Positions 12,738-61,953 of a stretch of DNA of 64,000 nt are shown here, piece by piece; positions within the stretch are counted from its first letter, which is position 1, and every line of letters begins with the position of its first letter. The notes under the pieces were generated by a model that worked only from the letters and a program-made list of their open reading frames with translations, made no database searches and had not been told where the DNA came from. Origin of the DNA: a virus; IMG/VR virus record IMGVR_UViG_3300027396_000021, positions 19,631 to 83,630 of that record; one strand, given 5' to 3'. The translations under genes were made by a program, and so were the position numbers.

Positions 12738-12780
12738 AGTTTAACTAATAAATATATAAACATTTTGGGACTATTAAACT
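12738..12780 (+). promoter_or_regulatory. Inverted repeat bracketing a late promoter and abutting a start codon
   Basis: AGTTTAA (12738-12744) and TTAAACT (12774-12780) are perfect 7-bp inverted arms with a 29-nt loop. The late promoter at 12748-12754 lies in the loop and the right arm touches the ATG at 12781. Only transcripts entering from upstream would carry both arms, so the start codon could be occluded in read-through mRNA and free in late mRNA. Confidence 0.4.
12748..12754 (+). promoter_or_regulatory. T4-type late promoter (ATAAATA)
   Basis: ATAAATA in the 45-nt gap before the fourth tail-fibre paralogue. Expected start near 12760 gives a leader of about 20 nt containing GGGA. Confidence 0.6.
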
Positions 12781-14589
12781 ATGGCATACGAAGTTAACAA
12801 ATTTAATGGAACGTTTTTAGTATCAGTTGCAGACGGTACAATTGATACAACTACAGATTTACGTTTCATTGGTAAAAATTACGCCGGGTACGGCGAAGTT
12901 CAAAACGAAAATTTCCTACATTTGCTAGAAAATTTTTCAAATACTACACCTCCACCGAAGTCTGTAACAGGTCAAATTTGGTATGATTCTCAAAATAAAA
13001 AATTAAAATTTTATGACGGGTCAAAATTTAAAGTTGCTAGCGGTGCAGAAGTTAGTTCTACAGCACCGTCTGGTTTAGCAACAGGTGATTTTTGGTGGGA
13101 TTCGTCAGCAAAACAGTTGTATGCCTATAACGGAACTGGATATACGTTAGTTGGTCCAGTGTCCAGCCCAGACCTAGGAACTTCAATTATAGCTGGTGAA
13201 GTTGTAAAAGGAACTATTTCGTCTGATATTGGACCTCATACAATATTAAAAGTAATTACAAATGATAAAGTTGTTGGTATTTTCAGTAGAACTGAATTTA
13301 CACTTGATAATGCACAAAATCCTATCGAAGATTTTACATATATTAAGAAAGGATTTACTCTAGCTAAATCACAAACAGGTGTTTCAACAGACGACTACGT
13401 TATGTGGGGCACAGCTCAAAATGCGAATCAGTTAGGCGGAGTCAATGCTGATCAGTATATTAGAGTTGGTGATAACGCATTTACATCTGAAGTAGCATTC
13501 AGCGATCCTGGATTTACAGTAGGCGATGCAACCGGCGGTGATCTAAGAATTCGTGTTGAAAACGGCGACGAAACTATTATTGAAAACCGGTTAGGAAATC
13601 CTATATATTTTAGAATTTCAGTAGTTCCAACAGTTGATGAAAGAGATGTTGCTGTGATAACATCAACAGGTATTGTGCCTGGAGATAACAGCACTTATTC
13701 GTTAGGCACTGACAGCAGTAAATGGGTCAACGTTTATTCTACTACATTTACCGGAAGTCTTGTTGGAAATGTTACTGGAAATTCAACAGGAACGCATACA
13801 GGAAGTGTTTTAGCCACCGACTCTACAGTATTAATAGACGGAACTACAAAACAGATTGGATACACTGGTGCAACCTTAGTAGGAACATTAACTGGTTCTG
13901 TAACAGGATCAGCATCGACCGCAACTAATGCTGGAAAATTAAATGACCTAGAAGCAACTAGTGATATTCCTGCAGGCGGCGTAGCATCTATCCCAATTAG
14001 AGATACAAGTGGTAACATTACTGCTAATCAATTTATTGGAACGTCTAATAATACAGATAAATTATTCCTTGACAAAACCAATGCAGTTACAGATCCTGCT
14101 TGGAGTGATTCAACAGAATCTACACAATATAGAACAGCAAGATTAACAGCAACTGCCTATTCTATTGCTGCTAGAGATTCTAGCGGAAATTTAACAGCAA
14201 ATATATTCAATGGTACAGCAACAGCAGCTAGATACGCTGACTTGGCAGAAAAATATCTAACAGATAAAGAATATGAACCAGGTACAGTTGTTATAGTAGG
14301 CGGAGAAAAAGAAGTTACAGCAGCAGATGTTAATACTCGTGCAATTGGTGTAGTTTCAACTAATCCTGCTTATATGATGAACAAAGATCTAGAAGGCGGA
14401 ACATATATTGCTCTAAAAGGTCGTGTTCCTTGCAAAGTTTACGGCGCAGTTAAAAAAGGAGATCGCTTAGTTGCAGGACCAGGCGGCGCAGCTATTGCTG
14501 CACACGGCAATTATGCTAATGTATTTGCTGTGGCATTGGAATCAAACGGTAACGATGGCGTTAAATTAATCGAAGCATTGGTGTTATAA
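12781..14589 (+). CDS. Tail fibre paralogue with possible self-cleaving chaperone-type C-terminus
   Basis: A 602-aa fourth paralogue with the shared N-terminal module (V-N-K-F-N-G-T-F, I-G-K-N-Y-A-G-Y-G-E-V-Q-N-E-N-F). The shaft has V-T-G-N-S-T-G-T-H-T-G-S repeats. The last 110 residues (A-R-Y-A-D-L-A-E-K-Y, Y-E-P-G-T-V-V-I-V-G-G, V-S-T-N-P-A-Y-M-M, G-R-V-P-C-K-V-Y-G, K-G-D-R-L-V-A) match the C-terminal domain found on T4-like fibre proteins and resemble peptidase-G2-type intramolecular chaperones; whether it cleaves itself cannot be told. It is preceded by its own late promoter, unlike the second and third paralogues, and followed after 1 nt by the next gene. Confidence 0.8.
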   Translation: MAYEVNKFNGTFLVSVADGTIDTTTDLRFIGKNYAGYGEVQNENFLHLLENFSNTTPPPKSVTGQIWYDSQNKKLKFYDGSKFKVASGAEVSSTAPSGLATGDFWWDSSAKQLYAYNGTGYTLVGPVSSPDLGTSIIAGEVVKGTISSDIGPHTILKVITNDKVVGIFSRTEFTLDNAQNPIEDFTYIKKGFTLAKSQTGVSTDDYVMWGTAQNANQLGGVNADQYIRVGDNAFTSEVAFSDPGFTVGDATGGDLRIRVENGDETIIENRLGNPIYFRISVVPTVDERDVAVITSTGIVPGDNSTYSLGTDSSKWVNVYSTTFTGSLVGNVTGNSTGTHTGSVLATDSTVLIDGTTKQIGYTGATLVGTLTGSVTGSASTATNAGKLNDLEATSDIPAGGVASIPIRDTSGNITANQFIGTSNNTDKLFLDKTNAVTDPAWSDSTESTQYRTARLTATAYSIAARDSSGNLTANIFNGTATAARYADLAEKYLTDKEYEPGTVVIVGGEKEVTAADVNTRAIGVVSTNPAYMMNKDLEGGTYIALKGRVPCKVYGAVKKGDRLVAGPGGAAIAAHGNYANVFAVALESNGNDGVKLIEALVL

Positions 14590-14590
14590 T

Positions 14591-15496
14591 ATGACTACAA
14601 ACGGATCAGATATCTTATCTTCTGATTATAATTCTATCAGAGCCAAAGCAGTATCGTTGTTAGGCACAGGTTCAGGGCAACGTGGATATAATCAGACGAT
14701 TCAATCGTCCGATGTGTTTGCAGGTAATCAAATCACTAAAGCCCAATGGGACGCATTGCGTTATGATATTGTTAATATTAAGTACCATCAGGATGGTGCT
14801 GTTCCTAACATAGTAACTATTAACTCCGGTGATTTAATTGGATACGGAGCATCTTATCCTAATAACAATTATGACACAATAATTAATTCTGCAGTAGAAA
14901 ATAAGTTTAATATTTCTCCAAGTACTTCCACAGTAACAACAAAAATAGGCCAAACAACAACATCGACTTGGTCTTCATCAGCCACAGTAACAGTTACAGT
15001 AACATTCTCCTCATCTGACGAAGCAAGATATTTCTTCAACAGTGGAGGAAAAATTAGAGTATCGTCGGCTTTTTCCGGAAATACATCAACATTACAAAAT
15101 GGAGCCTGGGCTTATTTGTTATTAACTGTAGGTACAGTATCGTTTGGAGCAAATACTCATCCAACATTAAATTATTACACTATGACTAATTCCTACCAAA
15201 CGGTTTTTAGTCAAGCTCAAAGTACACCGTATTCTGCAAATAATTACAGCATAGAAGTTAAAACAGACGTAGCTGATAATTCAGAAGGTACTGCAAAAAT
15301 ATTATATTTTAAAATAACATTAAATGACGGATATACCGATCCAAGTCCAGGAAATCCACCTCCTCCGGGCGATTCTGTTAGCGGGACACTTTCGGTTGCT
15401 ATTTCAGAATTAAAGGCTTCGGGAACACTATTACCAACCGGAAATTGGACAATAACTAGTCCTACATATTCAATTTCTAGTTATTCAGTTTATTAA
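14591..15496 (+). CDS. Virion-associated protein, tandem paralogue A
   Basis: A 301-aa protein starting right after the fibre gene's stop. It has an N-terminal helical part (D-Y-N-S-I-R-A-K-A, G-Y-N-Q-T-I-Q-S-S-D-V, W-D-A-L-R-Y-D-I-V-N), a Ser/Thr-rich beta region with A-R-Y-F-F-N-S-G-G-K-I-R-V-S, and a Pro-rich linker (P-S-P-G-N-P-P-P-P-G-D) before a short C-terminal beta domain. The F-F-N-S-G-G-K-I-R block is common in T4-like marine phage virion proteins. The next gene is a diverged copy. Probably a fibre- or baseplate-attached protein; the exact role is not recognised. No clear ribosome site is visible, so translation may be coupled to the gene before. Confidence 0.65.
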   Translation: MTTNGSDILSSDYNSIRAKAVSLLGTGSGQRGYNQTIQSSDVFAGNQITKAQWDALRYDIVNIKYHQDGAVPNIVTINSGDLIGYGASYPNNNYDTIINSAVENKFNISPSTSTVTTKIGQTTTSTWSSSATVTVTVTFSSSDEARYFFNSGGKIRVSSAFSGNTSTLQNGAWAYLLLTVGTVSFGANTHPTLNYYTMTNSYQTVFSQAQSTPYSANNYSIEVKTDVADNSEGTAKILYFKITLNDGYTDPSPGNPPPPGDSVSGTLSVAISELKASGTLLPTGNWTITSPTYSISSYSVY

Positions 15497-15512
15497 ATAA
15501 TTAAATAACGAC

Positions 15513-16433
15513 ATGGCTGTTAATGATCTAATTAAAGTTGCGGATTACAATTCTATTCGTGCAAAAGTGGCTCAGGTATTTGGGACCGGCTCAGTAACCT
15601 ACGGTTACGGACAAACATTACTAAGCAGCGATGTTTCAGTAAGCAGCAAAGTTACAATTAATGAATGGGCAAATTTAAAATATGATATAATAAATGCTTA
15701 TGTACATCAAAACGGAACACTTCCTACTATTTTAACAGTAAACGAGGGAGGTACTGTACGTTACAGTACAACAGATGCTCCAGTTACAACGTATGATACT
15801 CTTGCCACATCTATAGAAACTAATAGATTTTCAGTAGGAGCTGGTTTATCATTAGTTACCAGTACGGTGTCAACTTCTAGAAACGGATCCTGGAGCAATT
15901 CTGCAAAGGCAACTGTGCAATTTTATTGGGCCAATGCTACTCAAGCAAGACATTTTTTTAACAGTGGCGGAAAAATTCGAGTATCTGCTTCTTTAGGAAC
16001 AGACGGTACTGCATCTGCACAAAATCAAAAGTGGAGAGAATTACTAGCAGCAGTTGGTTCTAGAGATTTTGGCGGATCGACATCTACAACTCCGGCAAAC
16101 GGAGCAAGTTGGTACCAGTGTAATAATTCATTCCAAACATATTATAGTGCCAATGCTTCAAGTCCATACGGAAGCAATTCTATTCAATTAAAATCTAGAG
16201 TTGTTGATCAACCTTTGAATGTAAACGGACTTGCTGCGTCTGGCGAAATCGAAATAAATTTAGTTGACGCATACTCCGATCCAGGTTTTCCTCCACCAGG
16301 GGACTTAGTTGACGGAACAGTAACAATGAATGTTAGTGTAGTTTATCCAACCGGAATCCTTTACCCTTTAGGAACAGGCAATTTTACTGTTACAAATCCA
16401 ACGTTTAGTATTGGATCAATCACGTTCTCTTAA
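15513..16433 (+). CDS. Virion-associated protein, tandem paralogue B
   Basis: A 306-aa diverged copy of the preceding gene: the same order of blocks (A-D-Y-N-S-I-R-A-K-V, G-Y-G-Q-T-L-L-S-S-D-V, W-A-N-L-K-Y-D-I-I-N, A-R-H-F-F-N-S-G-G-K-I-R-V-S) and the same Pro-rich linker (P-G-F-P-P-P-G-D) near residue 265. The two copies differ most in the loops between these blocks, as expected for surface-exposed virion proteins under selection. It closes the plus-strand structural block; a run of seven Ts follows the stop but no hairpin precedes it. Function beyond a likely virion role is not recognised. Confidence 0.65.
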   Translation: MAVNDLIKVADYNSIRAKVAQVFGTGSVTYGYGQTLLSSDVSVSSKVTINEWANLKYDIINAYVHQNGTLPTILTVNEGGTVRYSTTDAPVTTYDTLATSIETNRFSVGAGLSLVTSTVSTSRNGSWSNSAKATVQFYWANATQARHFFNSGGKIRVSASLGTDGTASAQNQKWRELLAAVGSRDFGGSTSTTPANGASWYQCNNSFQTYYSANASSPYGSNSIQLKSRVVDQPLNVNGLAASGEIEINLVDAYSDPGFPPPGDLVDGTVTMNVSVVYPTGILYPLGTGNFTVTNPTFSIGSITFS

Positions 16434-16459
16434 TTTTTTTCTCCCTACAATCCCACAAC

Positions 16460-16466
16460 ATAAATA
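16460..16466 (+). promoter_or_regulatory. T4-type late promoter (ATAAATA) for the glycosyltransferase/radical SAM operon
   Basis: ATAAATA, preceded by C, 26 nt before the ATG at 16492. It overlaps the left half of the palindrome at 16463-16482. Expected start near 16472, the dyad centre. Confidence 0.65.
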
Positions 16467-16482
16467 ATGTGCGCACATTATT
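16463..16482 (+). promoter_or_regulatory. Perfect 20-bp palindrome overlapping the late promoter
   Basis: AATAATGTGC followed immediately by its reverse complement GCACATTATT. In RNA it gives an 8-bp stem with a GCGC loop, ending directly before the GGAG ribosome site (16483-16486). Late transcripts starting at about 16472 would lack the left half. It could also be a protein-binding dyad. Confidence 0.6.
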
Positions 16483-16491
16483 GGAGATTGT

Positions 16492-16839
16492 ATGGACGAC
16501 CTTTTGAAAAAATCGTTAGACTTTTCTAACTACCAACAAACTTTTTCAATTCAACGTAAAATCCTTAAAGAAAAAATTGAAGCCAAATTAACATACGGTG
16601 TTAATGGTGGAATATTTTATATTGATCAAACACTTCTAACTTTTGTTGAGATGCTTTGCAATAAAGGAAGGACAGATAGCATTATTCTAGATAAAAATAA
16701 CACACCGATTTTAATCGAAAGTTTAGAAGATTTTAAAAATGAAATTTTTAATAGATATTTTGAATCGTCAAATGAATATTATACGGCCTATCAAAATTTA
16801 AAGAAAAGCCGATCTGTTGAAAAATTATTAGAACAATGA
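16492..16839 (+). CDS. Conserved hypothetical protein heading the late sugar/radical SAM operon
   Basis: A 115-aa, mostly helical, charged protein with a central Y-G-V-N-G-G-I-F-Y-I-D block and a C-terminal E-Y-Y-T-A-Y-Q-N-L-K-K-S-R helix. No catalytic motif or membrane segment is visible and I do not recognise the family. It starts 5 nt after a GGAG site (16483-16486), right behind the late promoter and palindrome, and its stop overlaps the next start (ATGA), so it is translationally coupled to the glycosyltransferase-like gene. Being first in the operon suggests a small accessory or carrier role, but that is inference only. Confidence 0.6.
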   Translation: MDDLLKKSLDFSNYQQTFSIQRKILKEKIEAKLTYGVNGGIFYIDQTLLTFVEMLCNKGRTDSIILDKNNTPILIESLEDFKNEIFNRYFESSNEYYTAYQNLKKSRSVEKLLEQ

Positions 16840-17696
16840 ATACAGGTATTTTAATTTATGCTCACAATAATCGAACTCTCGATTACGCATTAATGTCTTT
16901 AATATCTGGAGGCCTTGCTAAAAAAAATTTAAATGTTCCTGTATCTTTAGTAACTGATCCTTCGACTGTTGAGTGGATGAAAGAATCAAACATATTTGAA
17001 AAAGCAATGTCAGTATTTGAAAATTTAATTATTATAGATAGACCGATTACAAACAATCAAAGAAAATTACACGACGGTGAGGAGTCTACAACTGTGCCGT
17101 TTATAAATTCTAATCGACATAGTGCCTGGGAATTAACACCTTACGATAGAACATTATTAATTGACAGTGATTATTTAATTTTTTCAGATCATCTAAACAA
17201 GTACTGGAATGTTGATTGCGATGTTATGATAGGTGAATCTATTAACGACATTTATAGTAATGATAGATTAGGTTATTTAGATAAACATATATCTGATACT
17301 GGAATTAAAATGTATTGGGCAACCACTGTAATGTTTACTAAGAATGAAAATTCTAAACTATTTTTTGATATGGTAGGTTTAATAAAAGAAAATTATGAAT
17401 ATTATTCAGACATTTTTGGATTTAATCCTACACAGTATAGAAATGATATTGCTTTCAGTATAGCAAAACACATATTAGACGGATTTGAACAATCCTCAGT
17501 CAACTCGCTTCCGCCAGTGTTAACAACATTAGACAAAGATATTTTGTACAGCGTAGACAATGACAAATTAAAATTTTTAATAAATTACAATCTTGACAGT
17601 AATTATTTTCCTTCGTCTGTGAGCAATATAGATATTCATATTATGAATAAACAAAGTATTATTAGGCACAAAGATAAATTATTGGATTTAATATGA
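16836..17696 (+). CDS. GT-A-type glycosyltransferase-like protein
   Basis: A 286-aa protein with a nucleotide-diphospho-sugar transferase-like layout: N-terminal strand (G-I-L-I-Y-A-H-N-N-R-T), W-E-L-T-P-Y-D-R-T-L-L-I-D-S-D-Y-L-I-F at about residues 98-116, where D-S-D is the expected metal-binding D-x-D motif, and a later region holding Y-R-N-D-I-A-F-S, resembling the acceptor-side N-D-x-A motif of GT8-like enzymes. No signal peptide, so it acts in the cytoplasm. It overlaps both neighbours by ATGA and is a distant paralogue of the next gene. Donor and acceptor are unknown; late expression beside fibre genes makes virion or host-surface glycosylation plausible. Confidence 0.6.
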   Translation: MNTGILIYAHNNRTLDYALMSLISGGLAKKNLNVPVSLVTDPSTVEWMKESNIFEKAMSVFENLIIIDRPITNNQRKLHDGEESTTVPFINSNRHSAWELTPYDRTLLIDSDYLIFSDHLNKYWNVDCDVMIGESINDIYSNDRLGYLDKHISDTGIKMYWATTVMFTKNENSKLFFDMVGLIKENYEYYSDIFGFNPTQYRNDIAFSIAKHILDGFEQSSVNSLPPVLTTLDKDILYSVDNDKLKFLINYNLDSNYFPSSVSNIDIHIMNKQSIIRHKDKLLDLI

Positions 17697-20039: not shown

Positions 20040-22314
20040 TATTTTTTATGTTTCTAAAACTGAAGGAAATGACGATACTTGGCTAAAAATAAAATCTAAG
20101 TATCCGTTATCTCAACGTTTGACAAACATAACAACATATGATCAGATTAAATCTAAATCTTTTACAAAAATGTTCTGGGTTATCTGGGACGATATAGATT
20201 TAGTAGATACGTTTAATTTAACAGAGTACAAAGCCACTAAGTGGGACGATATGTATGTTCACGTTTTTAAAAACAGTGAACACTATGATGGTATATGTTT
20301 GTTTCCTAAATCAACTACAATTTCTCAAAGAGAATTTGATAATAGATTTTTTACAGACAAAAAAGAAATAGATATAGTTGCCAGTGTTCCGTTAGGATAC
20401 GATAAATTTAATATTAATAATTACGATGATTATTTAAATGCTATTGAACATTCTAATACAGATATGTTTTGGGCAATTTGGCCTGACGTAAATGTCAAAA
20501 AAGATTTTAAATTTAATTATAAAGTTCCTAAGCATAATTCTAATATTGTCCATATTTTTAAAAATGGAGAATTTTTTGACGGCATTTGCTTATTTCCAAA
20601 AAATGTAAAAGTTTCTAAGAGAGAATTTTATCATAGATTTTTTGCAGATAAAAAAGAAATAGATATTGTTGCAAGTACACCGAAAAAATATAGTGTATAT
20701 TCTCCTAATACATTTGAAGAATATCAACAAATTAAAGATGATATGTTTTGGGTCGTATGGCCCGAGACTAAAATTATAAATGAATCGGTACTTGATTTAT
20801 ACTTTAGTCATCATAATACATATGATCGTAGAGAAAATCATATTTTTAAAAATTTATGTAATGATGTTGAGTCTTATATAAGCGGCATGGTTCTTTGCAG
20901 TAAGTATAAACAGATGTCCCCAACAGAGTTTGAAAGTCAATATGCCACTGATAAAAAAGAATATAATATTGTAGCAAGCAAATTTCAATATCCAGTATAC
21001 AATATATCAACATACGATCAATATTTAGAAATTGTTAAAAACGAAAAACAAAAAATGTTTTGGTGCATATGGCCTAACATTGAAATTTTAGATAATACTA
21101 TTTTTGATTTATATTTTGATCCTAACGACGGCAAATATGATCACGATAGAGAAGAAAATCATATGTTTAAAAATTTATGCAATGATAAAGAATCCTATTT
21201 AAATGGTCTTGTTCTATGTTCAACATCTAAAATTATTTCTCAAAGAGAATTTAATAGACGATATTTAATTGATAAAAAAGAACACAATCGTGTTGTTAGC
21301 CGATATAGATATAATAGATATACGTTAACTACCTATGATGAATATCAACAAATTATAGAAAAAGAAACTCAACCTTTGTTTTGGGGAATATGGCCAGAAA
21401 TTGATATAACTGACGAAACAGTTTTTGATTTATATTTTGATCCTAACGACGGCAAGTCCGATCACGATAGAAAAGAAAATCATATGTTCAAACATATGTT
21501 TAACGGTACAGAAATTTATATTAACGGGTTAGCATTATTTTCAAAGACAAAGGTTATAGGTCATCGAGAATTTAAACATCGATTTTTAATAGAAAGAAAA
21601 GAACACGATCGTTTAGTTTCTAAGCATCGATTATATGACGTTGTTTTTATCAGTTACAACGAACCTAATGCAGATGAAAATTATAATAGATTGCTGGTCA
21701 AGTGTCCTCGAGCAAAAAGAGTCCACGGTGTTAAAGGAATACATCAAGCGCATATTAAGGCAGCTGAAATGTGTAACACTGATATGATATGGATAGTTGA
21801 TGGCGATGCAATCATTGAAGATAATTTTAATTTTGATCTAACTATGTCTAGTTATGACATAGATTGTGTTCACGTGTGGCGTAGTAGAAACCCAATAAAC
21901 GATTTAGAATATGGTAACGGTGGTGTAAAATTATTACCAAGACTATTAACATTATCAATGGATGTAACAACTCCGGATATGACAACTTCTATATCTAAAA
22001 AATTTAAAGCTATGGATGATGTATCGAACATTAATTCGTTTAATACAGATGAGTTTGCAACCTGGAGATCAGCATTTAGAGAATGTTGTAAATTATCAAG
22101 TCGTGTAATTGAACGTCAATATGAAGATGAAACACAACAAAGATTAGATGCTTGGTGTTCATTAGGAATTGATAAACAATATGGCAAGTATGCAATTGCA
22201 GGTGCTATTGCAGGACGTAAGTACGGAGAAGAAAATAAAAACAATCCCGATGCATTAAGAAAAATTAATGACTTTGAATGGTTAAAGGAACAGTTTAGTG
22301 GAATACAACCGTAA
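20032..22314 (+). CDS. Repeat protein fused to a GT2-like domain
   Basis: A 760-aa protein made of five tandem units of about 100-115 residues (about 1-119, 120-213, 214-314, 315-421, 422-532), each with M-F-W-x-I-W-P/D near the middle, a later H-x-F-K-N and an R-E-F-x-x-R-F/Y-x-x-D-K-K-E end, followed by a C-terminal GT2-like domain (533-760) with Y-D-V-V-F-I-S-Y-N-E-P-N-A-D, V-H-G-V-K-G and V-D-G-D. The first residues of unit 1 (Y-D-I-F-Y-V-S) resemble the start of the GT domain. Units 4 and 5 are almost identical in DNA around 21100-21180 and 21420-21500, showing recent duplication. The repeats may bind a repetitive polymer or protein acceptor; that is inference. Confidence 0.6.
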   Translation: MYDIFYVSKTEGNDDTWLKIKSKYPLSQRLTNITTYDQIKSKSFTKMFWVIWDDIDLVDTFNLTEYKATKWDDMYVHVFKNSEHYDGICLFPKSTTISQREFDNRFFTDKKEIDIVASVPLGYDKFNINNYDDYLNAIEHSNTDMFWAIWPDVNVKKDFKFNYKVPKHNSNIVHIFKNGEFFDGICLFPKNVKVSKREFYHRFFADKKEIDIVASTPKKYSVYSPNTFEEYQQIKDDMFWVVWPETKIINESVLDLYFSHHNTYDRRENHIFKNLCNDVESYISGMVLCSKYKQMSPTEFESQYATDKKEYNIVASKFQYPVYNISTYDQYLEIVKNEKQKMFWCIWPNIEILDNTIFDLYFDPNDGKYDHDREENHMFKNLCNDKESYLNGLVLCSTSKIISQREFNRRYLIDKKEHNRVVSRYRYNRYTLTTYDEYQQIIEKETQPLFWGIWPEIDITDETVFDLYFDPNDGKSDHDRKENHMFKHMFNGTEIYINGLALFSKTKVIGHREFKHRFLIERKEHDRLVSKHRLYDVVFISYNEPNADENYNRLLVKCPRAKRVHGVKGIHQAHIKAAEMCNTDMIWIVDGDAIIEDNFNFDLTMSSYDIDCVHVWRSRNPINDLEYGNGGVKLLPRLLTLSMDVTTPDMTTSISKKFKAMDDVSNINSFNTDEFATWRSAFRECCKLSSRVIERQYEDETQQRLDAWCSLGIDKQYGKYAIAGAIAGRKYGEENKNNPDALRKINDFEWLKEQFSGIQP

Positions 22315-23731
22315 TATAAAAGGCAACGAGTTGAAAGAAATAAATGGCAAGTATGAATCTAGATACTTTGCCGACGCTGACTACGTTCAAAAAAAACTTA
22401 ATGAAGTAAGTCCTAGTTTTTGTTTGGCTAAATGGTATAATGTTAGTATACATATTCCTACAGGTAAGACACACAGTTGTTACCATCCTAGAGCACATCA
22501 AGTTCCATTAGAAGAAATACGTATTGATGTTAGTGCATTGCATAATACAAAGTATAAAAAAGAACAACGAAAGTTAATGTTAGAGGGAACTCGTCCTAAC
22601 GAATGCGAATTTTGTTGGCAAATTGAAGATAGTGGAACACAGTTAAGTGATCGTGCTTACCGTAGCAAGGATGTGTGGGAAGATGGTTTAATTGATGAAG
22701 CACAGTTAATAGGCTACTTGGGTAATTCTAATCCAAGATATGTCGAAGTTAATTTTAACCAAGCCTGTAATTTTAAATGTAGTTATTGCAGTCCTCATCT
22801 ATCTACTGCCTGGCATAAAGACGTTCAAGCAAATGGAGCATTTATTTTAAAGGATAGATGGCACAATGATATCAATTGGATGAAAAGTCTTAATATTGAT
22901 AATGGTCCTGATAATCCCTATTTGTTAGCATTCTGGGAATGGTTGCCTCAAATATACCCAACACTACATACTTTCCGTATGACTGGCGGCGAGCCGCTAA
23001 TGGACAAGAACACATTTCGTATGTTTGATTACGTTAAAGAACATCCTAAAAAAGATTTACATTTAAGTATAACTAGTAATTGTTGTCCACCTGGCGATCA
23101 GTGGAAAAAGTTTATGACAAGTCTTAAAGAAATTACTGATGCAAACGCCATTGATCATTTTATGTTATATTGTTCTTTAGATTCTTGGGGAGAACAAGCA
23201 GAATATATTCGCAACGGGATGGATTTTAATTTACTGTATAACAACGTATGTGATTATTTGCAAAATAGTGAAAAACATAGTTTAACATTTATTATTACTT
23301 TTAATGTGTTAAGTTATACAGGATTTTATAACTACATTGAAAATATTCTTAAATTGAGAAAACAATTTAATAAAGGTCGTCAATTAATTTGGTTTGATGT
23401 TCCTCAATTAATGGATCCTGATTTTTTAAATCCTAAATTAATGCCTGAACTAGTTTCTGAATTAGAGCGAACAATTGACTTTATGAAATACAATCCGGAA
23501 ACACGTTGGAATGAATTTAAAGGATTTAGTGATTTTGAAATCAGTAAAGTTCAACGATTAGTTGATTGGATTAAATCGAATACAGGATTTAATACAGAGA
23601 CAGCTAAAGAAAATTTTTATTTATTTTTTAGCCAGCACGACGAGCGAAGAGGTACAAATTTTTTAAATACATTTCCAGAACTAACTAATTTTTGGAAACA
23701 ATGCGAGGCAATATGCAAGAAAGTAGAGTGA
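22298..23731 (+). CDS. Twitch-type radical SAM protein 1
   Basis: A 477-aa protein with two Cys-rich parts. The N-terminal part (W-Y-N-V-S-I-H-I-P-T-G-K-T-H-S-C-Y-H-P ... C-E-F-C-W-Q) is the twitch-like auxiliary cluster region; the radical SAM core follows with C-N-F-K-C-S-Y-C at residues 157-164, M-T-G-G-E-P-L-M, and a C-terminal helical tail. Such enzymes cleave S-adenosylmethionine to start radical chemistry on peptide or sugar substrates; the substrate is unknown. The start is GTG with AAGGA 9 nt upstream, inside the end of the preceding gene. First of four radical SAM genes in a row; the second is a close paralogue. Confidence 0.8.
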   Translation: MEYNRNIKGNELKEINGKYESRYFADADYVQKKLNEVSPSFCLAKWYNVSIHIPTGKTHSCYHPRAHQVPLEEIRIDVSALHNTKYKKEQRKLMLEGTRPNECEFCWQIEDSGTQLSDRAYRSKDVWEDGLIDEAQLIGYLGNSNPRYVEVNFNQACNFKCSYCSPHLSTAWHKDVQANGAFILKDRWHNDINWMKSLNIDNGPDNPYLLAFWEWLPQIYPTLHTFRMTGGEPLMDKNTFRMFDYVKEHPKKDLHLSITSNCCPPGDQWKKFMTSLKEITDANAIDHFMLYCSLDSWGEQAEYIRNGMDFNLLYNNVCDYLQNSEKHSLTFIITFNVLSYTGFYNYIENILKLRKQFNKGRQLIWFDVPQLMDPDFLNPKLMPELVSELERTIDFMKYNPETRWNEFKGFSDFEISKVQRLVDWIKSNTGFNTETAKENFYLFFSQHDERRGTNFLNTFPELTNFWKQCEAICKKVE

Positions 23732-25074
23732 CATTTATTAAAAATGTTCGAGATAGATTAAACAAAGTAGGTGAAGGGTTTTGTGCAATGAAATGGTTGC
23801 ACCAAACTTTATATCTGCACACAGGCGATAACCATAGTTGTTATCATCCACGTCCACACCATATACCATTAGATGAAATAGCAATTGATCCTAGTGCATT
23901 ACATAATACAAAATGGAAAATGCAACAAAGAAAAACAATGTTAGAAGGTGGAAGACCGGAAGAATGTTACTATTGTTGGAACATAGAGGATCTACCAGGC
24001 GAACATATTAGTGATCGAATGATACATAGCTCTAGTGATTTTTCAGAACCATTGATAGAATCGTTAGCAGAATTGCCGTGGGATGCTCCTATCAATCCGC
24101 GGTATCTAGAGGTCAGCTTTGGTAACGGTTGTAACTATCGTTGCGGATATTGCTGTCCACAAGCTAGTACAATGTGGATGGAAGAAATTAAAAAACACGG
24201 CAATTACGACCTAACATATAATCAATACGGAATTGAATTTTTAGAACACGGAACATACTATGGACCTAAAGATGAAAATCCCTACATTGAAGCATTTTGG
24301 AAATGGTGGCCTAGTTTACGTAAAGACCTTCATACACTTCGTATTACTGGCGGAGAACCGTTAATGAATCCAGGAGCAATGAAATTTTTTGATTTGCTAG
24401 AAGATGAACCAGCCCCCCATTTAGAAATTACTCTAAACAGTAATTTAGGAGTTACCTTTGATAGAGTTGATAGATTAATTACTCGAGTTACTAGTTTAGT
24501 TAAACAAAAGAAAATTCGTAAATTTAGTTTTTTTACTAGTATTGATAGTTGGGGCGAACAAGCAGAATATATGCGCACAGGGTTAAAATGCGACCACTGG
24601 GAACGCAATATGATTGAAGTTATTAAAGCTGGTGCAACTGTTAATTTAATGTGTACCTATAATGTTTTATGTGTGACTAATTTTCAAAAGTTATTACATA
24701 AGGTAATTGAATGGCGTGAAAAGTTTGGATTTGAATCAGTATCCTTTGATACACCGTACCTAAAAGAACCTCCTCACTGGATGATTAACATACTTCCAAC
24801 AGAGTTTATTAAATATCAAGAAGAAACATTACAATTTATTTTAGATAATAAACAATGGTTCACAGATGTTGAGTATGAAAAAATGTTAAGGGTAACTGAT
24901 TATATGAAAGAGAACCCAGTTAGTCCTGAAAAAATAAAACAAGGTCAGAGAGATTTTTATTCATTTTTTACAGAAAACGATAAAAGATTAGGAACAAGTT
25001 TATTAAAAACATTTCCTGAATATACAGAATTCTACAATTACTGTAAAACAATTTATGACAACTATGATAACTGA
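23713..25074 (+). CDS. Twitch-type radical SAM protein 2
   Basis: A 453-aa close paralogue of the upstream gene: W-L-H-Q-T-L-Y-L-H-T-G-D-N-H-S-C-Y-H-P, then P-E-E-C-Y-Y-C-W-N, the radical SAM motif C-N-Y-R-C-G-Y-C at residues 140-147 and I-T-G-G-E-P-L-M. The ATG at 23713 is chosen because GAGG lies 5 nt upstream; an in-frame TTG at 23692 and ATG at 23701 would add a few residues. It overlaps the previous stop. Both paralogues keep every cluster cysteine, so both are probably active, perhaps on related sites of one substrate. Substrate unknown. Confidence 0.8.
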   Translation: MQESRVTFIKNVRDRLNKVGEGFCAMKWLHQTLYLHTGDNHSCYHPRPHHIPLDEIAIDPSALHNTKWKMQQRKTMLEGGRPEECYYCWNIEDLPGEHISDRMIHSSSDFSEPLIESLAELPWDAPINPRYLEVSFGNGCNYRCGYCCPQASTMWMEEIKKHGNYDLTYNQYGIEFLEHGTYYGPKDENPYIEAFWKWWPSLRKDLHTLRITGGEPLMNPGAMKFFDLLEDEPAPHLEITLNSNLGVTFDRVDRLITRVTSLVKQKKIRKFSFFTSIDSWGEQAEYMRTGLKCDHWERNMIEVIKAGATVNLMCTYNVLCVTNFQKLLHKVIEWREKFGFESVSFDTPYLKEPPHWMINILPTEFIKYQEETLQFILDNKQWFTDVEYEKMLRVTDYMKENPVSPEKIKQGQRDFYSFFTENDKRLGTSLLKTFPEYTEFYNYCKTIYDNYDN

Positions 25075-26287: not shown

Positions 26288-26288
26288 T

Positions 26289-30979: not shown

Positions 30980-31264
30980 TTATTTTACCTCTTCACCGGT
31001 GGTAAGTTTATAAACTGCGAAGTCTGAAGTTTTAAAAAGTTTGTTTAATTTCTTTGCTAGGTTATATGCGTGACCAGGATTTGAAAATGATACTTTTTTA
31101 TATTTAGGTCCTGGATAACTAGCAACCAAACTTCCGCTCTTTAAATTAAAAGGCTGGCCTTTATAGAATACAGCCCAGATGGCTTCACTATCAAGTATTT
31201 GTTCAATTTTGAACGTTTCCTTGTTAGCGTATTCTAATAAGACAGTCGGTTTTGGTCTACTCAT
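30980..31264 (-). CDS. Small conserved hypothetical protein (94 aa)
   Basis: A 94-aa basic protein (K-P-T-V-L-L-E-Y-A-N-K-E-T-F-K-I-E-Q-I-L, then Y-P-G-P-K-Y-K-K-V-S-F-S-N-P-G-H-A) with no recognised motif; the beta-rich centre and basic C-terminus could suit nucleic-acid or subunit binding. It starts the late group 31264-29099. Its leader holds a late promoter and a 9-bp inverted repeat whose loop contains AGGAA and whose right arm ends one base before the ATG. Confidence 0.6.
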   Translation of the reverse strand: MSRPKPTVLLEYANKETFKIEQILDSEAIWAVFYKGQPFNLKSGSLVASYPGPKYKKVSFSNPGHAYNLAKKLNKLFKTSDFAVYKLTTGEEVK

Positions 31265-31265
31265 A

Positions 31266-31296
31266 ATATACGTGTTTCCTAATTAACCACGTATAT
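31266..31296 (-). promoter_or_regulatory. Inverted repeat between late promoter and start codon
   Basis: ATATACGTG and CACGTATAT (31266-31274 and 31288-31296) form a perfect 9-bp stem with a 13-nt loop. On the minus strand the 5' arm starts on the last base of the late promoter and the 3' arm ends one base before the ATG at 31264, with AGGAAA in the loop. A transcript starting at about 31290 would lack most of the 5' arm. Confidence 0.55.
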
Positions 31297-31303
31297 ATTT
31301 ATG
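31296..31303 (-). promoter_or_regulatory. T4-type late promoter (CATAAATA)
   Basis: Minus-strand CATAAATA, 31 nt before the ATG at 31264, same variant as at 16459-16466. Confidence 0.6.
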
Positions 31304-50155: not shown

Positions 50156-50186
50156 AATAAAAGTCCTAAAAGGTGTATACTTTATT
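50156..50186 (-). promoter_or_regulatory. Bulged inverted repeat between late promoter and ATG
   Basis: On the minus strand AATAAAGT (50179-50186) pairs with ACTTTTATT (50156-50164; one extra T bulged). The 5' arm overlaps the end of the late promoter, the 3' arm abuts the ATG at 50155 and AGGA lies at the loop edge. A late start at about 50177 would lose the 5' arm. Confidence 0.4.
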
Positions 50187-50190
50187 TATC
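50183..50190 (-). promoter_or_regulatory. T4-type late promoter (GATAAATA)
   Basis: Minus-strand GATAAATA, 27 nt before the ATG at 50155. Confidence 0.6.
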
Positions 50191-50431: not shown

Positions 50432-50436
50432 ATTAA

Positions 50437-50444
50437 TATTTATC
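50437..50444 (-). promoter_or_regulatory. T4-type late promoter (GATAAATA)
   Basis: Minus-strand GATAAATA separated from the ATG at 50431 by TTAAT; predicted start falls at the ATG. Confidence 0.55.
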
Positions 50445-51165
50445 GCATAGCTAGCTGGAATGCTTGATGTTTTTCTTTACGTTGATCTAGATGTTTCATT
50501 CCTGGATTAATTGGTTTAGTTACAGATTTTGTATCTTTAAAACTATCAACTTTATTAGCAACACGGGTTTTCCAATACCATACTGCAACTTTGGCAGCAA
50601 CTTCAGGTTTTTCTACAAGCTCTGGATGTTTTTCTAAAGGAAGACCTAGAGCTTCTCCGGCTTTTTTATAATTTTCTCGTCCAGTTAACTGAATATAACC
50701 ACGTCCCTTATATTTGGCACCGTCCCCTGCTTGTTTGTTTCCTAAAATTTTTGCCTTGCGAGGAGCGTATCTAGGATCGTATTTTTTAAAATCTAAAGAT
50801 CCACCAATTTCTTTCATATGTTTAAAGTCTAATGTTTCGTGAGCACATTGAGCTAGAAACGCAGCAAGCTCTGGCCCTTTTATACCTGCTTTCTCAGCAG
50901 CCTTTTTAAGGTACACTTCGTGCGGATTTCCTGTAACAGATTTAGCAACATCTTTTTTGCTAATTGTTTTTAACGGATCTACTTTTTTGGTATGTTGTTG
51001 TTTTGCCTGTTGTACAATTGCAGGTTTATCGTTTTGGTTTTTTACTTTGCCTGCCTCTGCACTAGGACTGTGCCCTAATGCGGCAGCACCTAAAGCAGCA
51101 CCGGCTACCCAGTCTTTCCAACCTTCCTCTAATTCTTGAGGAGTAATAAACTCTGCTGCTCTCAT
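50440..51165 (-). CDS. GH19-type endolysin with capsid-targeting-like N-terminus
   Basis: A 241-aa protein. The N-terminus [15 protein letters not shown] resembles T4 capsid-targeting peptides (E-F-I and an L-x-E site). A linker precedes a lysozyme-like GH19 domain: L-A-A-F-L-A-Q-C-A-H-E-T-L-D-F (catalytic Glu), then K-Y-K-G-R-G-Y-I-Q-L-T-G-R-E-N-Y. GH19 enzymes cut peptidoglycan. A second GH19 protein without this N-terminus sits in the lysis cassette (60013), so this one may be packaged and act at infection. Overlaps the next gene by 4 nt. Confidence 0.75.
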   Translation of the reverse strand: MRAAEFITPQELEEGWKDWVAGAALGAAALGHSPSAEAGKVKNQNDKPAIVQQAKQQHTKKVDPLKTISKKDVAKSVTGNPHEVYLKKAAEKAGIKGPELAAFLAQCAHETLDFKHMKEIGGSLDFKKYDPRYAPRKAKILGNKQAGDGAKYKGRGYIQLTGRENYKKAGEALGLPLEKHPELVEKPEVAAKVAVWYWKTRVANKVDSFKDTKSVTKPINPGMKHLDQRKEKHQAFQLAMR

Positions 51166-52269: not shown

Positions 52270-53240
52270 GACGACCTCTTTTGTTTTGGACCCTTACGTT
52301 CCTTCCATTTTTTATCTGTCGAACACCAATAGCGTCCGTATCCTTCCTCAATGCTGTCAATCATAGGATCGATACCTCTACTACGTATTCCGCCTTTCTT
52401 ACGAATTTTTGCAAGCTCTTCTAAAGCATGACGAATTTGTTCAACATTCATTTTTAATTCATCAAATTGTCTTACCATAGTCTGCCATTCGCCTGGGCTA
52501 GCACCATCAACTCTACTGGCTAAATCTTTGATTTGACCCGCTGCTCTTAACATTCTATATTTAAGTTTAGCAGGATTAGCTTTGTTGTGACTATGAATCA
52601 TAGGATCCATTGGATCAGCAGGATCTAATTCGATAGGTGCTTCTGAAATACTTTCGGTAATTTTCATACCTTTACGAACAGCAACAAATAAAGGTTTAGC
52701 AAGTTCCCCTGCACCTGTTGCTTCTTTAAATCCTTCAAAATCGTTATTGGCAGCGGCAGCTCTTGCTCCACTGGCACTTACACCAGCAACGCCTTCTGCA
52801 CCATCTTCTCTATCTCCGCTTGATACAAAATCTAGAACATCAAATTTATAGAAACCGTGTGCTTTACCTTCAACACCGTTGTATCCTTCTAACAATTTTT
52901 TCATATCTTCTAAACGATCACTACCTGCAACAAACGTAGCTGCATTATAGCCGTTATCATAAAGATAAGAAGCAACTTTTACAACTGTATTAAGACCGGC
53001 ATTATCTACAACATCTTTAGCATATTCTGGAAACATTTCTTTAATAAACTTTATTTTAGTTCCATAATCTAAAGGATTCTTTTTAGCATCTTGACTTTGA
53101 CTAACAAATATCTGCATATCTCCGCCCTGGGCTTTCATAGTATCTAATACCTGCTTATGGCCAATGGTAGGTGGATTCATTCTGCCAAAGCAAAATGTAA
53201 CGTGTTTTGTTCCGCCTTCAAATAATTCAAACAATAACAT
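52266..53240 (-). CDS. Nucleotidyltransferase-like (NMNAT/cytidylyltransferase fold) late protein
   Basis: A 324-aa protein. The N-terminus M-L-L-F-E-L-F-E-G-G has a capsid-targeting look with an L-x-E site (L-F-E). A nucleotidyltransferase domain follows: C-F-G-R-M-N-P-P-T-I-G-H (G-R-x-N-P-P-T-x-G-H, with T/H-x-G-H catalytic motif) and a later V-S-A-S-G-A-R-A-A (like I-S-S-T-x-I-R). The C-terminal third is a separate region ending G-Y-G-R-Y-W-C-S-T-D-K-K-W-K. Such proteins occur in T4-like marine phages; substrate (NMN, choline-P, glycerol-P) is not identified. TAATG overlap upstream. Confidence 0.7.
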   Translation of the reverse strand: MLLFELFEGGTKHVTFCFGRMNPPTIGHKQVLDTMKAQGGDMQIFVSQSQDAKKNPLDYGTKIKFIKEMFPEYAKDVVDNAGLNTVVKVASYLYDNGYNAATFVAGSDRLEDMKKLLEGYNGVEGKAHGFYKFDVLDFVSSGDREDGAEGVAGVSASGARAAAANNDFEGFKEATGAGELAKPLFVAVRKGMKITESISEAPIELDPADPMDPMIHSHNKANPAKLKYRMLRAAGQIKDLASRVDGASPGEWQTMVRQFDELKMNVEQIRHALEELAKIRKKGGIRSRGIDPMIDSIEEGYGRYWCSTDKKWKERKGPKQKRSS

Positions 53241-53575
53241 TACTTGTAATCGCCTTTTTCTATATGTTTTTCTTGTTCATCTGCAATGCGTTTGGCAAGA
53301 TCGATTAATTTTTCTTTGGGGAATTTTTCTTCTTTATCTTTAATATCAAATTTATCGCAATAATGTCCTACTGCTGTTTCAATAGGTCTAATGTATATTT
53401 TAAATACGTGAGGATTACCCTTGTGTTCTCTATGTTTTTTAATGGCAGGGAAGAAGTGCTGATCTAAAATTCCTGTATCGTTGTCAATAAAGAACTTTAA
53501 ATCGTCTAACCAGTCAATATCTTGCTGGTCGTCTTTTGGTGCACCAATAGGGCTAAACATTTCTTTCAATAACAT
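53240..53575 (-). CDS. Conserved late protein with capsid-targeting-like N-terminus (111 aa)
   Basis: A 111-aa protein starting M-L-L-K-E-M-F-S-P-I-G-A-P-K, with L-K-E as a possible prohead-protease site. The rest (D-I-D-W-L-D-D-L-K-F-F-I-D-N-D-T-G-I-L-D-Q-H-F-F-P-A-I-K-K-H, then I-Y-I-R-P-I-E) is an alpha/beta domain conserved among T4-like marine phages without assigned role. Its leader carries a late promoter and an 8-bp inverted repeat whose right arm reaches into the ATG. Confidence 0.65.
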   Translation of the reverse strand: MLLKEMFSPIGAPKDDQQDIDWLDDLKFFIDNDTGILDQHFFPAIKKHREHKGNPHVFKIYIRPIETAVGHYCDKFDIKDKEEKFPKEKLIDLAKRIADEQEKHIEKGDYK

Positions 53576-53600
53576 AGTATCTTCCGTAAGATGATACTAT
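53574..53600 (-). promoter_or_regulatory. Inverted repeat covering the start codon, overlapping a late promoter
   Basis: ATAGTATC and GATACTAT (53593-53600 and 53574-53581 on the minus strand) form a perfect 8-bp stem with an 11-nt loop. The 5' arm starts on the last base of the late promoter; the 3' arm includes the first two bases of the ATG at 53575 and GGAAG lies at the loop edge. A late transcript starting near 53594 would keep at most about 2 nt of the 5' arm. Confidence 0.55.
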
Positions 53601-53607
53601 ATTTATC
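53600..53607 (-). promoter_or_regulatory. T4-type late promoter (GATAAATA)
   Basis: Minus-strand GATAAATA, 24 nt before the ATG at 53575; heads the late group 53575-49277. Confidence 0.65.
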
Positions 53608-53619
53608 GAAAGTTTACTG

Positions 53620-53994: not shown

Positions 53995-53997
53995 CAC

Positions 53998-57001: not shown

Positions 57002-57004
57002 TAT

Positions 57005-57856: not shown

Positions 57857-57862
57857 AGTAAC

Positions 57863-57902: not shown

Positions 57903-57929
57903 ATTTAAGTAAGATTTACTGAGCTCAAA

Positions 57930-58133: not shown

Positions 58134-58145
58134 ATCTTTCTCCTT

Positions 58146-58682: not shown

Positions 58683-58700
58683 GTGTCGCTCCTATTCAAT

Positions 58701-59261: not shown

Positions 59262-59289
59262 TTATACGCTCCTTGTAAATGTGCTATGT

Positions 59290-60011: not shown

Positions 60012-60012
60012 A

Positions 60013-60648
60013 TTAGGCTCCTAATACGTGTAGTGCGTGGTTATAATGTTTAATACGATCTTCTAAACCAATAGTACCACCGTTGATACGCTTGGTTAAT
60101 GTTAGAATGTCACCTTTGTCTGCCCATTGATTTAGGTTGTTTGTTTCCCAGAACCAGCAAGCTGATTGCACAGCACCTTCGAATGTCTGTAGATATTCAC
60201 TGGCTTCTTCAACAGGAATATCTAACGACGCAGCAAACCAAGTATAGTTTTCTTTACCAGTTAACTGAATAAGGCCGCGACCACAATAACGGAAACCATC
60301 GCCGCTATGCTCATCACCGTTGCCCATACGATTTGCATAGATTCTATTAGCAATAGCTTCTTGCTTGTTGGGCAATGAAGCATATTGATTAGCAATGTCG
60401 TCATTCGGAAAATATTTAGGGAAAATCTTACGTAGACTCGGAGCACGATAATTTAAGTTTTCTTTTAAAACTTTGAAACCGCCTGATTCGTGAGCGCATT
60501 GTGCTACAAAAGCTGCTACACGCTGCGGAGTATTAATTTCGTAATCTGGAAGAATCTCGCATAGTGCATTATACCAATGATCTAGGTATTGATTACCGGG
60601 AATCATTTGTCCTAACTGTTCTTTTGTAAAATCAAACGTAAAACTCAT
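60013..60648 (-). CDS. GH19 endolysin of the lysis cassette
   Basis: A 211-aa GH19-type lysozyme, without an N-terminal targeting sequence: F-V-A-Q-C-A-H-E-S-G-G-F (catalytic Glu in H-E-S-G-G-F), Y-R-A-P-S-L-R-K-I-F-P-K-Y-F, then R-Y-C-G-R-G-L-I-Q-L-T-G-K-E-N-Y. Cuts peptidoglycan at lysis after release by the holin. AAGGA lies 8 nt before the ATG. Second GH19 enzyme of the window (the other, 50440, has a capsid-targeting-like start). Confidence 0.85.
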   Translation of the reverse strand: MSFTFDFTKEQLGQMIPGNQYLDHWYNALCEILPDYEINTPQRVAAFVAQCAHESGGFKVLKENLNYRAPSLRKIFPKYFPNDDIANQYASLPNKQEAIANRIYANRMGNGDEHSGDGFRYCGRGLIQLTGKENYTWFAASLDIPVEEASEYLQTFEGAVQSACWFWETNNLNQWADKGDILTLTKRINGGTIGLEDRIKHYNHALHVLGA

Positions 60649-60650
60649 TA

Positions 60651-61406
60651 TTATATCCTTTTCAATAACATAGAACGACTGCCGTTGTTAAAAACAAAAT
60701 TTTCTCCAACTTTATTAATGTTGTAGTCGCCTAATACTTTAGTTAGCCAAAACATCTCGCTAGTTGCTGCTTCGTCAACTGAATACCCGTCTTCAATGCC
60801 TTCTAAGATAGATTCGGTTGTACTGTCTTTAACAATCTGTAGTGTAATTTTATTATTGTAAGGTTTGTGAATAGTGATAACATCTCCATCTAATGTTAAA
60901 TCGTCCATTAATGTTTTTGTAAAGAACTGTTTAACATTTTCTGTTTGCATCTTATGCATAAACCCTTTATAATCATTAGGAGTATCTGGGATACGTTTTA
61001 ATGAATCGCCTGATACTTCGTGTACTTGATTATCTTTATAATATTTAAATTTAAAATTATCAATACCTGTTAGTCGTTGAACACCATAGGTTAAGTCCTT
61101 AATCTGTTCTGCTAGCTTTGGAGTACGACTAATTTCTACAAAGACTGAATACTCGCCACTATTGTCTTCACCAGAACTAACATCCGCGTCTAAAACAAAT
61201 GAATATCCTTTTTCAATGAACTCCATTAAGTCTTTTGCTGGACTTCTATCTTTTACTTTGAAACTAACAACACAGACGTCCTGATCTTCTCCCATTTTTG
61301 ATTTGAAGCTGTCTACTTCAAATGTGGGATGGATCATTTCTTGTAAATCTAAAGGACGAAGACCTTCATTAAGCTGCTGGTTGTTCTGCTGCTGGTTGTT
61401 CTGCAT
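60651..61406 (-). CDS. Conserved late protein (251 aa)
   Basis: A 251-aa protein starting with a short Gln/Asn-rich stretch (M-Q-N-N-Q-Q-Q-N-N-Q-Q), followed by an alpha/beta body (L-D-L-Q-E-M-I-H-P-T-F-E-V-D-S-F-K, V-V-S-F-K-V-K-D-R-S-P-A-K-D-L-M-E-F-I-E-K-G-Y). The ATG at 61406 has AGGAAA upstream and lies inside the end of the previous gene (38 nt overlap); longer in-frame extension is rejected. Conserved in T4-like marine phages next to the companion gene upstream; function unknown, a virion-associated role is likely from late expression. Confidence 0.6.
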   Translation of the reverse strand: MQNNQQQNNQQLNEGLRPLDLQEMIHPTFEVDSFKSKMGEDQDVCVVSFKVKDRSPAKDLMEFIEKGYSFVLDADVSSGEDNSGEYSVFVEISRTPKLAEQIKDLTYGVQRLTGIDNFKFKYYKDNQVHEVSGDSLKRIPDTPNDYKGFMHKMQTENVKQFFTKTLMDDLTLDGDVITIHKPYNNKITLQIVKDSTTESILEGIEDGYSVDEAATSEMFWLTKVLGDYNINKVGENFVFNNGSRSMLLKRI

Positions 61407-61914
61407 TTGCCATTTCCTGTGCTTGTTGTTCTGCTGGATCGATATGAGCATTAACGCCAGATGCGCTAACAATGTCTTCAATCTTATTCTTATCTAATTC
61501 TGTATAACCTCTATTAATATCAGACATTAATTTCTTAGGCATTTTAATTTTAATCATCCATACTGGATGACGATCTAGTTTACCTTTTCTTGTTCCTGGT
61601 CTAATATCATCGGGGTCTTTAATTTTTCTAACAGAAGATATTTCTGTTTCTGCAACCTGAACCTTGCAACCGTATTCTAACAAACGTTTTGCACCTTCGG
61701 GTTCCGGCATTTCATCTTTAGGCCACATAAAGGTACATTCTACAAAATAGCGACTTTCGTGAGGTCCGGATACTAATTCACCGTCGAGCCAGTTGTCAAA
61801 AACATATACATCTAGTTCGTCAATTACTCTCTCAAAATCTTTGAGTAGATTTAAACTATTGTTAGAACCGTAGATCTGTTCTATATTATTAATAATATCT
61901 TTAATATCGGCCAT
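61369..61914 (-). CDS. Conserved late protein (181 aa)
   Basis: A 181-aa protein with an alpha/beta core (I-N-N-I-E-Q-I-Y-G-S-N-N-S-L-N-L-L-K-D-F-E-R-V-I-D-E-L-D-V-Y-V-F-D-N-W-L-D-G-E) and an Ala/Gln/Glu-rich, disordered C-terminal tail. It heads the lysis operon: late promoter 61930-61937, GGAGAA 4 nt before the ATG. Its 3' end overlaps the start of the partner gene. No known function. Confidence 0.6.
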   Translation of the reverse strand: MADIKDIINNIEQIYGSNNSLNLLKDFERVIDELDVYVFDNWLDGELVSGPHESRYFVECTFMWPKDEMPEPEGAKRLLEYGCKVQVAETEISSVRKIKDPDDIRPGTRKGKLDRHPVWMIKIKMPKKLMSDINRGYTELDKNKIEDIVSASGVNAHIDPAEQQAQEMANAEQPAAEQPAA

Positions 61915-61953
61915 GATTTCTCCTACTTGTATTTATCGAGATAATTTAATCAT
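61913..61953 (-). promoter_or_regulatory. Weak inverted repeat bracketing a late promoter
   Basis: ATGATT (61948-61953 on the minus strand) and AATCAT (61913-61918) are 6-bp arms with a 29-nt loop; the 3' arm includes the first two bases of the ATG at 61914 and the late promoter lies in the loop. Short arms in AT-rich DNA: could be chance. Confidence 0.25.
61930..61937 (-). promoter_or_regulatory. T4-type late promoter for the lysis operon (GATAAATA)
   Basis: Minus-strand GATAAATA, 15 nt before the ATG at 61914 with GGAGAA between. Confidence 0.6.

Follow-up and report, generated by a model that had tools for sequence, protein, structure and literature searches.

Do late genes of a T4-like phage hide their start sites in RNA that is read through from upstream? 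The question is raised by a stretch of 64,000 nucleotides (nt), here called the window, which comprises positions 19631-83630 of the 83,630-base virus contig IMGVR_UViG_3300027396_000021. The octamer NATAAATA, described in an excerpt of PMC2984593 as the late promoter of T4-like cyanophages, occurs 11 times in the window, and 10 of these copies sit 1-31 nt upstream of a start codon. A first-pass annotation had pointed to inverted repeats at six late promoters and had likened them to the translation switch of the T4 genes e, soc, 49 and I-TevI. All six repeats are readable in the sequence; those at promoters 16459, 31303 and 53607 exceeded chance, but the other three were weak and not conserved. 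The switch is probably real and conserved at a few late genes in a little-known group of T4-like phages, where it would act as a translation control. On the evidence of sequence, folds, conservation, a T4-type promoter with a gp55-like sigma factor and, at two sites, covariation, we consider it likely that genes 16492, 31264 and 53575 (named by their start positions) use the T4 device.

In the proposed mechanism, an inverted repeat straddles the late promoter; RNA arriving from upstream would contain its two arms and would fold so that the ribosome site, the start codon or both lie in the stem or right beside it. RNA from the gene's own promoter, starting ~6 nt past NATAAATA, would lose all or most of the 5' arm and stay open, and translation would be tied to the use of that promoter. 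In this model we infer the RNA start site, the occurrence of read-through, the blocking of ribosomes by the fold and any early or late timing. At all three supported sites the octamer lies shortly upstream of the start codon, and a helix predicted in the longer RNA hides the Shine-Dalgarno (SD) sequence, the AUG or both.

Pairing across three late promoters

Relatives were collected by IMG/VR scans, among the matches listed (at most 80 per scan). Leaders more than 85% identical were counted once, and relatives without the octamer were excluded (4/29 for gene 16492, 2/29 for gene 12781, 1/53 for gene 31264, 4/21 for gene 50155 and 0/28 for gene 61914). The read-through RNA that was folded began 35 nt before the octamer and ended 12 nt inside the gene, and the score was its fold energy minus the energies of the parts before and after the assumed RNA start, which was placed 6 nt past the octamer; late RNA of T4 starts 6 nt after its octamer. 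In the main null, the upstream bases were shuffled with the octamer fixed. The second null was a dinucleotide shuffle, which tests little at 31303 and 53607, where the 5 nt that follow the octamer belong to the arm and are barely altered. Covariation was assessed without alignment by a swap test, in which each upstream half was paired with each downstream half and own partners were compared with swapped ones. Pair types were counted by stem search, with shuffled leaders as the control, because MAFFT alignments misplaced the 3' arms.

T4 itself served as a control. The z score was -4.6 for the promoter nearer to gene e and -1.3 for the farther one, -2.2 for gene 49, -2.21 for I-TevI and, with one or the other choice of octamer, -1.6 or -3.7 for soc. 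A scan of 22 T4 promoter-start pairs, covering 150,000 of the 168,903 bases, found the five lowest z scores at e, I-TevII (-3.0), I-TevIII (-2.8), 51 and 49, with 6 of the 22 pairs at about -2 or lower.

The late promoter of gene 16492 (CATAAATA, 16459-16466, + strand; expected RNA start ~16472) was found in 25 of 29 non-redundant relatives, counting any first base (A, C, G or T) or the forms NCTAAATA and GGTAAATA. In three or four distant relatives the octamer was absent, and by eye three carried a TTGACA...TATACT-like promoter instead. The earlier proposal had placed the repeat at 16463-16482; this inner 20-nt palindrome is real, but outer arms that extend it, TACAATC/GATTGTA, had been missed; their 5' side precedes the promoter and their pairing reaches the start codon. 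The whole hairpin (16440-16499) folded at -18.0 kcal. Its 5' strand (16440-16470, +) has outer arms at 16440-16455, upstream of the promoter, and an inner arm at 16464-16470 that overlaps it, and its 3' strand (16475-16499, +) has the inner arm at 16475-16481, followed by outer arms that enclose GGAG (16483-16486) and the ATG at 16492.

The fold of the window leader at 16459 was unlikely under both nulls (p 0.010 with the upstream shuffle, p 0.011 with the dinucleotide shuffle). The z score was negative in all 25 relatives (mean -3.20, p<0.05 in 19); under the dinucleotide null the mean was -2.89, with negative values in 23 and p<=0.05 in 15 of the 25. The swap test yielded -13.59 kcal for own partners versus -7.31 kcal for swapped ones (z -9.9; 0 of 5000 permutations as low), and the own partner ranked best or second in 18 of 25 leaders. 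Inspection by eye showed that the arms covary, from AATAATGT/ACATTATT in this phage to AATAAACT/AGTTTATT in relative L020, and that they flank the promoter as TAATGTAC/GTACATTA in L080 and AACATAGC/GCTATGTT in L028. The predicted cost of opening the region from SD to AUG was 16.7 kcal in the read-through RNA versus 3.1 kcal in the late RNA in the window, and the medians in relatives were 12.6 and 2.5 kcal.

Gene 31264 (30980-31264, - strand; 94 amino acids, aa) has the same octamer, CATAAATA (31296-31303, -; expected RNA start ~31290), which was present, or replaced by a variant, in 52 of 53 non-redundant relatives. The hairpin at 31266-31296 consists of 9 perfect pairs between the 5' arm ATATACGTG (31288-31296, -), whose first base is common with the octamer, and the 3' arm CACGTATAT (31266-31274, -), which adjoins the start codon; the loop contains AGGA (31277-31280), and the AUG lies at the base of the stem. 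The mean z score of the 52 relatives was -1.87, with p<=0.05 in 23, and a stem from the octamer end with a score of at least 15 was found in 47 of them, compared with 3.7% of shuffled leaders. Opening from SD to AUG was predicted to cost a median of 9.4 kcal in the read-through RNA versus 2.2 kcal in the late RNA. By stem search, one position of the stem was A-U in 35 leaders, G-C in 8, G-U in 3 and U-A in 1, and another was A-U in 22 and G-C in 14. The swap test on the first 40 of the 52 leaders gave -8.64 kcal for own versus -7.46 kcal for swapped partners (z -5.1); most of the arms are alike, so that the own partner ranked first or second in just 4 of 40. The 5' arm has moved upstream of the promoter in L234, where it forms a perfect stem with its partner (GTTAACTCCT/AGGAGTTAAC) that covers the SD, and in L237 (perfect stem ATGTGCGTATA/TATACGCACAT). 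A 5' arm wholly upstream of the promoter, with a matched 3' arm, was seen in relatives L028, L059, L080, L234 and L237.

These changes bear on the suggestion that the repeats are DNA operators bound by a repressor of the promoter, as I-TevI acts at its own late promoter. The repeats overlap the promoter, and at 16459 the repeat is centred on the inferred start; autorepression by I-TevI offers a precedent, as given in an excerpt of PMC2988022. An operator keeps its letters, whereas here the letters of the arms, their spacing and even their side of the promoter differ among relatives. Moreover, G-U pairs, which pair in RNA and not in DNA, were common at gene 31264 (13 at one position and 18 at another). 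We regard the operator explanation as unlikely.

Gene 53575 (53240-53575, -; 111 aa) is preceded by the octamer GATAAATA (53600-53607, -; expected RNA start ~53594). The fold at 53563-53612 reached -20.9 kcal with 22 pairs (10 + 9 + 3) and the start codon inside. Its 5' strand (53593-53612, -) is made of CTTTCGATAA (53612-53603), including part of the octamer, and TATAGTATC (53601-53593), and its 3' strand (53563-53581, -) of GATACTATG, which holds the start codon, and TTATTGAAAG, which spans codons 2-5. The window leader at 53607 gave p 0.004 with the upstream shuffle and p 0.017 with the dinucleotide shuffle. A similar hairpin in relatives precedes a different gene, the proteins of which start with MRDLL. 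All 20 leaders of this group had a negative z (mean -1.32; 3 at p<0.05), 18 of the 20 had a stem score of at least 15 versus 1.0% of shuffled leaders, and one pair, counted by stem search, was G-C in 8, C-G in 6 and U-A in 3.

Alternatively, the late mRNA itself could begin with these hairpins, which would stabilise it or aid its translation. The stem begins within 1-2 nt of the octamer both at 31303 and in the MRDLL group, and an RNA start nearer to the octamer than in T4 would retain most of it; with a start at 4 nt, the late leader of gene 31264 folds at a median of -4.8 kcal. When the start was assumed at 4, 8 or 10 nt, the mean z score was -0.9, -2.3 and -2.2 for gene 31264 and -3.2, -3.2 and -2.8 for gene 16492. 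RNA started at the octamer could not include the 5' arm of gene 16492, nor that of gene 31264 in L234 and L237, since these arms overlap the octamer or precede it, and a 5'-end hairpin has a slim chance of being the right account.

Several observations weigh against a switch at these genes. The leader at 31303, taken alone in this phage, gave p 0.15 with the upstream shuffle and p 0.89 with the dinucleotide null, and the orthologues of gene 31264 in the isolates Phosso, PA5oct, Atu_ph07 and SCTP-2 showed no significant pairing (p 0.11-0.49); what supports the site is its conservation in relatives, rather than the p value of this leader. Of the 20 non-redundant orthologues of gene 53575, just 4 have the promoter, and these four had a mean z of -1.82, with one at p<0.05. 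The swap test on the MRDLL hairpin was not significant (p 0.24), because most of the arm never varies. A residual hairpin is possible in the late RNA at 31303 (-2.2 kcal) and at 53607 (-1.7 kcal). At gene 61914, which lacks support as a switch, 12 of 28 leaders gained at least 3 kcal in the read-through RNA, and this measure alone is therefore not specific. Finally, tail-fibre-like genes, presumably late themselves, lie upstream of gene 16492, where early silence is not an obvious need; the hairpin there may therefore insulate the gene from any upstream transcription rather than set its timing.

Late promoters without conserved pairing

Chance complementarity in AT-rich leaders is a very improbable explanation of the supported sites: it is refuted at genes 16492 and 31264 by the swap test, and the fold of gene 53575 in this phage has p 0.004. 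It does hold, as far as tested, for genes 12781, 50155 and 61914, for an octamer that precedes a 377-aa gene and for the majority of the remaining late promoters. The resemblance to e, soc, 49 and I-TevI, which was carried at three sites by the positions of the arms and at genes 16492 and 31264 also by covariation, did not extend to these other sites.

At the late promoter of gene 12781 (12747-12754, +), the repeat at 12738-12780 was unsupported as a switch: p was 0.905 with the upstream shuffle and 0.89-0.90 with the dinucleotide shuffle, and the relatives had a mean z of +0.29 (n=27). The octamer of gene 50155 (50183-50190, -) was kept in 37 of 40 distinct leaders of relatives, and the repeat at 50156-50186 was not conserved (z +1.4 and dinucleotide p 0.89-0.90 in the window; mean z +0.75 in relatives, n=17). 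The arms named for these two repeats are not the preferred fold. Those at 61913-61953, next to the promoter of gene 61914 (61930-61937, -), do form, though weakly, through ATGATT/AATCAT and TCTC/GAGA, and the caution with which this repeat had been put forward was fair (z -1.5, dinucleotide p 0.045); the pairing was not conserved (mean z -0.32, n=28). No covariation was detected by the swap test at gene 12781 (p 0.98), gene 50155 (p 0.98) or gene 61914 (p 0.17), and stems with a score of 15 were found in 0/27, 0/17 and 0/28 leaders, respectively. The median cost of SD-to-AUG opening in read-through and late RNA was 4.2 and 2.2 kcal for gene 12781, 3.3 and 3.0 kcal for gene 50155 and 3.9 and 0.8 kcal for gene 61914.

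The first-pass annotation had extended the switch to the whole genome and had proposed a scan of late promoters against controls as a check. Three contigs were scanned for NATAAATA near open reading frames: G001 (the same phage or nearly so), G002 (281,658 bases) and G003 (195,370 bases). For leaders of at least 9 nt, z was below -2 at 4 of 39 late promoters and at 10 of 110 control A/T isomer motifs; the scan overlooked one or more true sites, among them that of gene 50155 in G001, and did not register octamers written NCTAAATA. When the 208 non-redundant sites of all loci were pooled, z averaged -0.66, in a set that over-represents the families with which the loci were fetched. A genome-wide switch was rejected, as three of the six sites were unconserved and late promoters were no richer in hairpins than control motifs. 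The letters of the promoter alone do not separate the four supported or failed classes.

One candidate outside the window, the octamer at contig position 2043 before the 377-aa gene, gave z -3.3 only with the wrong start codon. With the conserved start, 8 relatives had a mean z of -0.60 and a swap-test p of 0.70, and the candidate was rejected. A conserved TATAAT-like stretch ~25 nt upstream of this octamer (locus L002) suggests tandem early and late promoters.

Late promoters next to the start codon

Gaps between NATAAATA and the ATG peaked at two lengths, 4-5 nt and ~22-29 nt. A gap of 4-5 nt was found in 82 of 286 distinct start/gap combinations, compared with 83 of 1283 for twelve A/T isomers (orthologues included), and per contig it accounted for 2 of 13 promoters in G001, 9 of 30 in G002 and 8 of 23 in G003. 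In T4, no gap was below 12 nt among 23. Late promoters 1-8 nt upstream of an ATG lie in the window at 54006-53999 (-), 50444-50437 (-), 30568-30561 (-) and 5680-5687 (+), and others in G002 and G003; the octamers at 50444 and 54006 also contain the TAA stop codon of the upstream gene. By eye, an intrinsic-terminator-like GC stem and T run stood directly before short-leader late promoters near 45511 and 224158 of G002.

The 4-5 nt spacing, as a pattern in sequence, predicts leaderless late mRNAs: given the T4 start rule, RNA from a promoter with a 5-nt gap would have the A of the AUG as its first base. The same spacing favours a start ~6 nt past the octamer, a premise of the switch model. At these promoters the late mRNA would start on the start codon, and in read-through RNA the octamer would occupy the place of the SD sequence. 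If so, such leaderless mRNAs would form a class of T4-type late transcript without a counterpart in the 150 kb of the T4 genome that were scanned; a literature search on short-gap promoters found nothing on T4-type late promoters, which is not proof of novelty. It is a tentative and somewhat doubtful idea that straddling hairpins and promoters 4-5 nt from the AUG both express a wider principle in this phage group, by which translation is tied to a gene's own promoter.

The phage, its switch genes and the T4 precedent

The phage is a large T4-like one, judged from its family B DNA polymerase, its tail collar and fibre-like proteins, its endolysins and DnaJ and its ClpA-like ATPase. The closest polymerases among the matches listed were those of Sinorhizobium phage Phosso and Agrobacterium phage Atu_ph07, at ~50% identity. 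A protein like gp55, the late sigma factor of T4, is encoded on all four contigs searched, with E 9.0e-7 and 32% over 95 residues for the contig of the window, and a gp23-like capsid protein on 3 of the 4. A search of the four contigs with T4 gp45 gave no match, and the empty answer from that search is uninformative. Megablast of window positions 10000-34000 against phage records found no match, and neither did Rfam within the window. Two endolysin-like genes (50440-51165 and 60013-60648, both -) have phrog_181 as their best match.

Homology searches matched none of the proteins 16492, 31264 and 53575 to a named family. Gene 16492 (16492-16839, +; 115 aa) heads a run of overlapping genes to ~29119. 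Its protein had no Pfam or PHROG match, and its predicted structure (mean predicted local distance difference test score 89) resembles phage DUF4376 proteins (Foldseek E 5e-4 to 8e-4, template-modelling score about 0.5-0.6); its best Foldseek match (E 8e-7) carries no name. DUF4376 proteins often serve in tail-fibre assembly. A PDB profile search returned 9 weak matches, the best to MutL (E 0.0087), and Foldseek against PDB found no match at E<=0.001. In a scan of 12500-17000 for the sigma-70 pattern, hits were no more frequent than in shuffled sequence. In the AT-rich run behind gene 16492, four adjacent genes (22298-27542, +) have radical S-adenosylmethionine (SAM) matches, 3 of 4 above the Pfam cut-off. 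For protein 31264, PDB profile searches gave no match; two small genes separate its gene from a 5'-3' exonuclease gene (PF02739, E 2.4e-20) that lies upstream on the same strand.

T4 reviews, in excerpts, place the device in e, soc, 49, I-TevI and other homing endonucleases, and describe the switch genes as late genes carried on long early or middle transcripts (PMC3014915, PMC2988022). Such a position fits gene 31264. Early silence would suit this gene, downstream of the exonuclease gene, and gene 16492 follows genes that are presumably late. In T4 49 and e, and also soc, the late promoter lies directly upstream of the ribosome site and the 5' strand of the helix that hides the SD or AUG lies at or upstream of the promoter, according to an excerpt of PMC3014915, as it does here. 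The genes and the phage lineage are different, and no arm sequence is in common. For T4 I-TevI, I-TevII, I-TevIII and segB and for Aeh1 mobE, an excerpt of PMC2988022 describes a helix on early or middle read-through RNA that is freed in late RNA; those genes encode homing endonucleases, and the three proteins here matched no named family. The cyanophage promoter introduced above (PMC2984593, in excerpt) is the identical octamer, whereas this phage belongs to a different group by its polymerase, among the matches listed.

By these results, a classic translation switch of T4, described for a handful of genes, would reach a distant lineage that is abundant in the environment, and gene families in which it is new. 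Covariation is evidence that the pairing is selected, and relatives in which the 5' arm has moved across the promoter with pairing kept provide natural tests of the mechanism. The switch appears to be reserved for a few individual genes, a pattern relevant to why some late genes need it and others do not.

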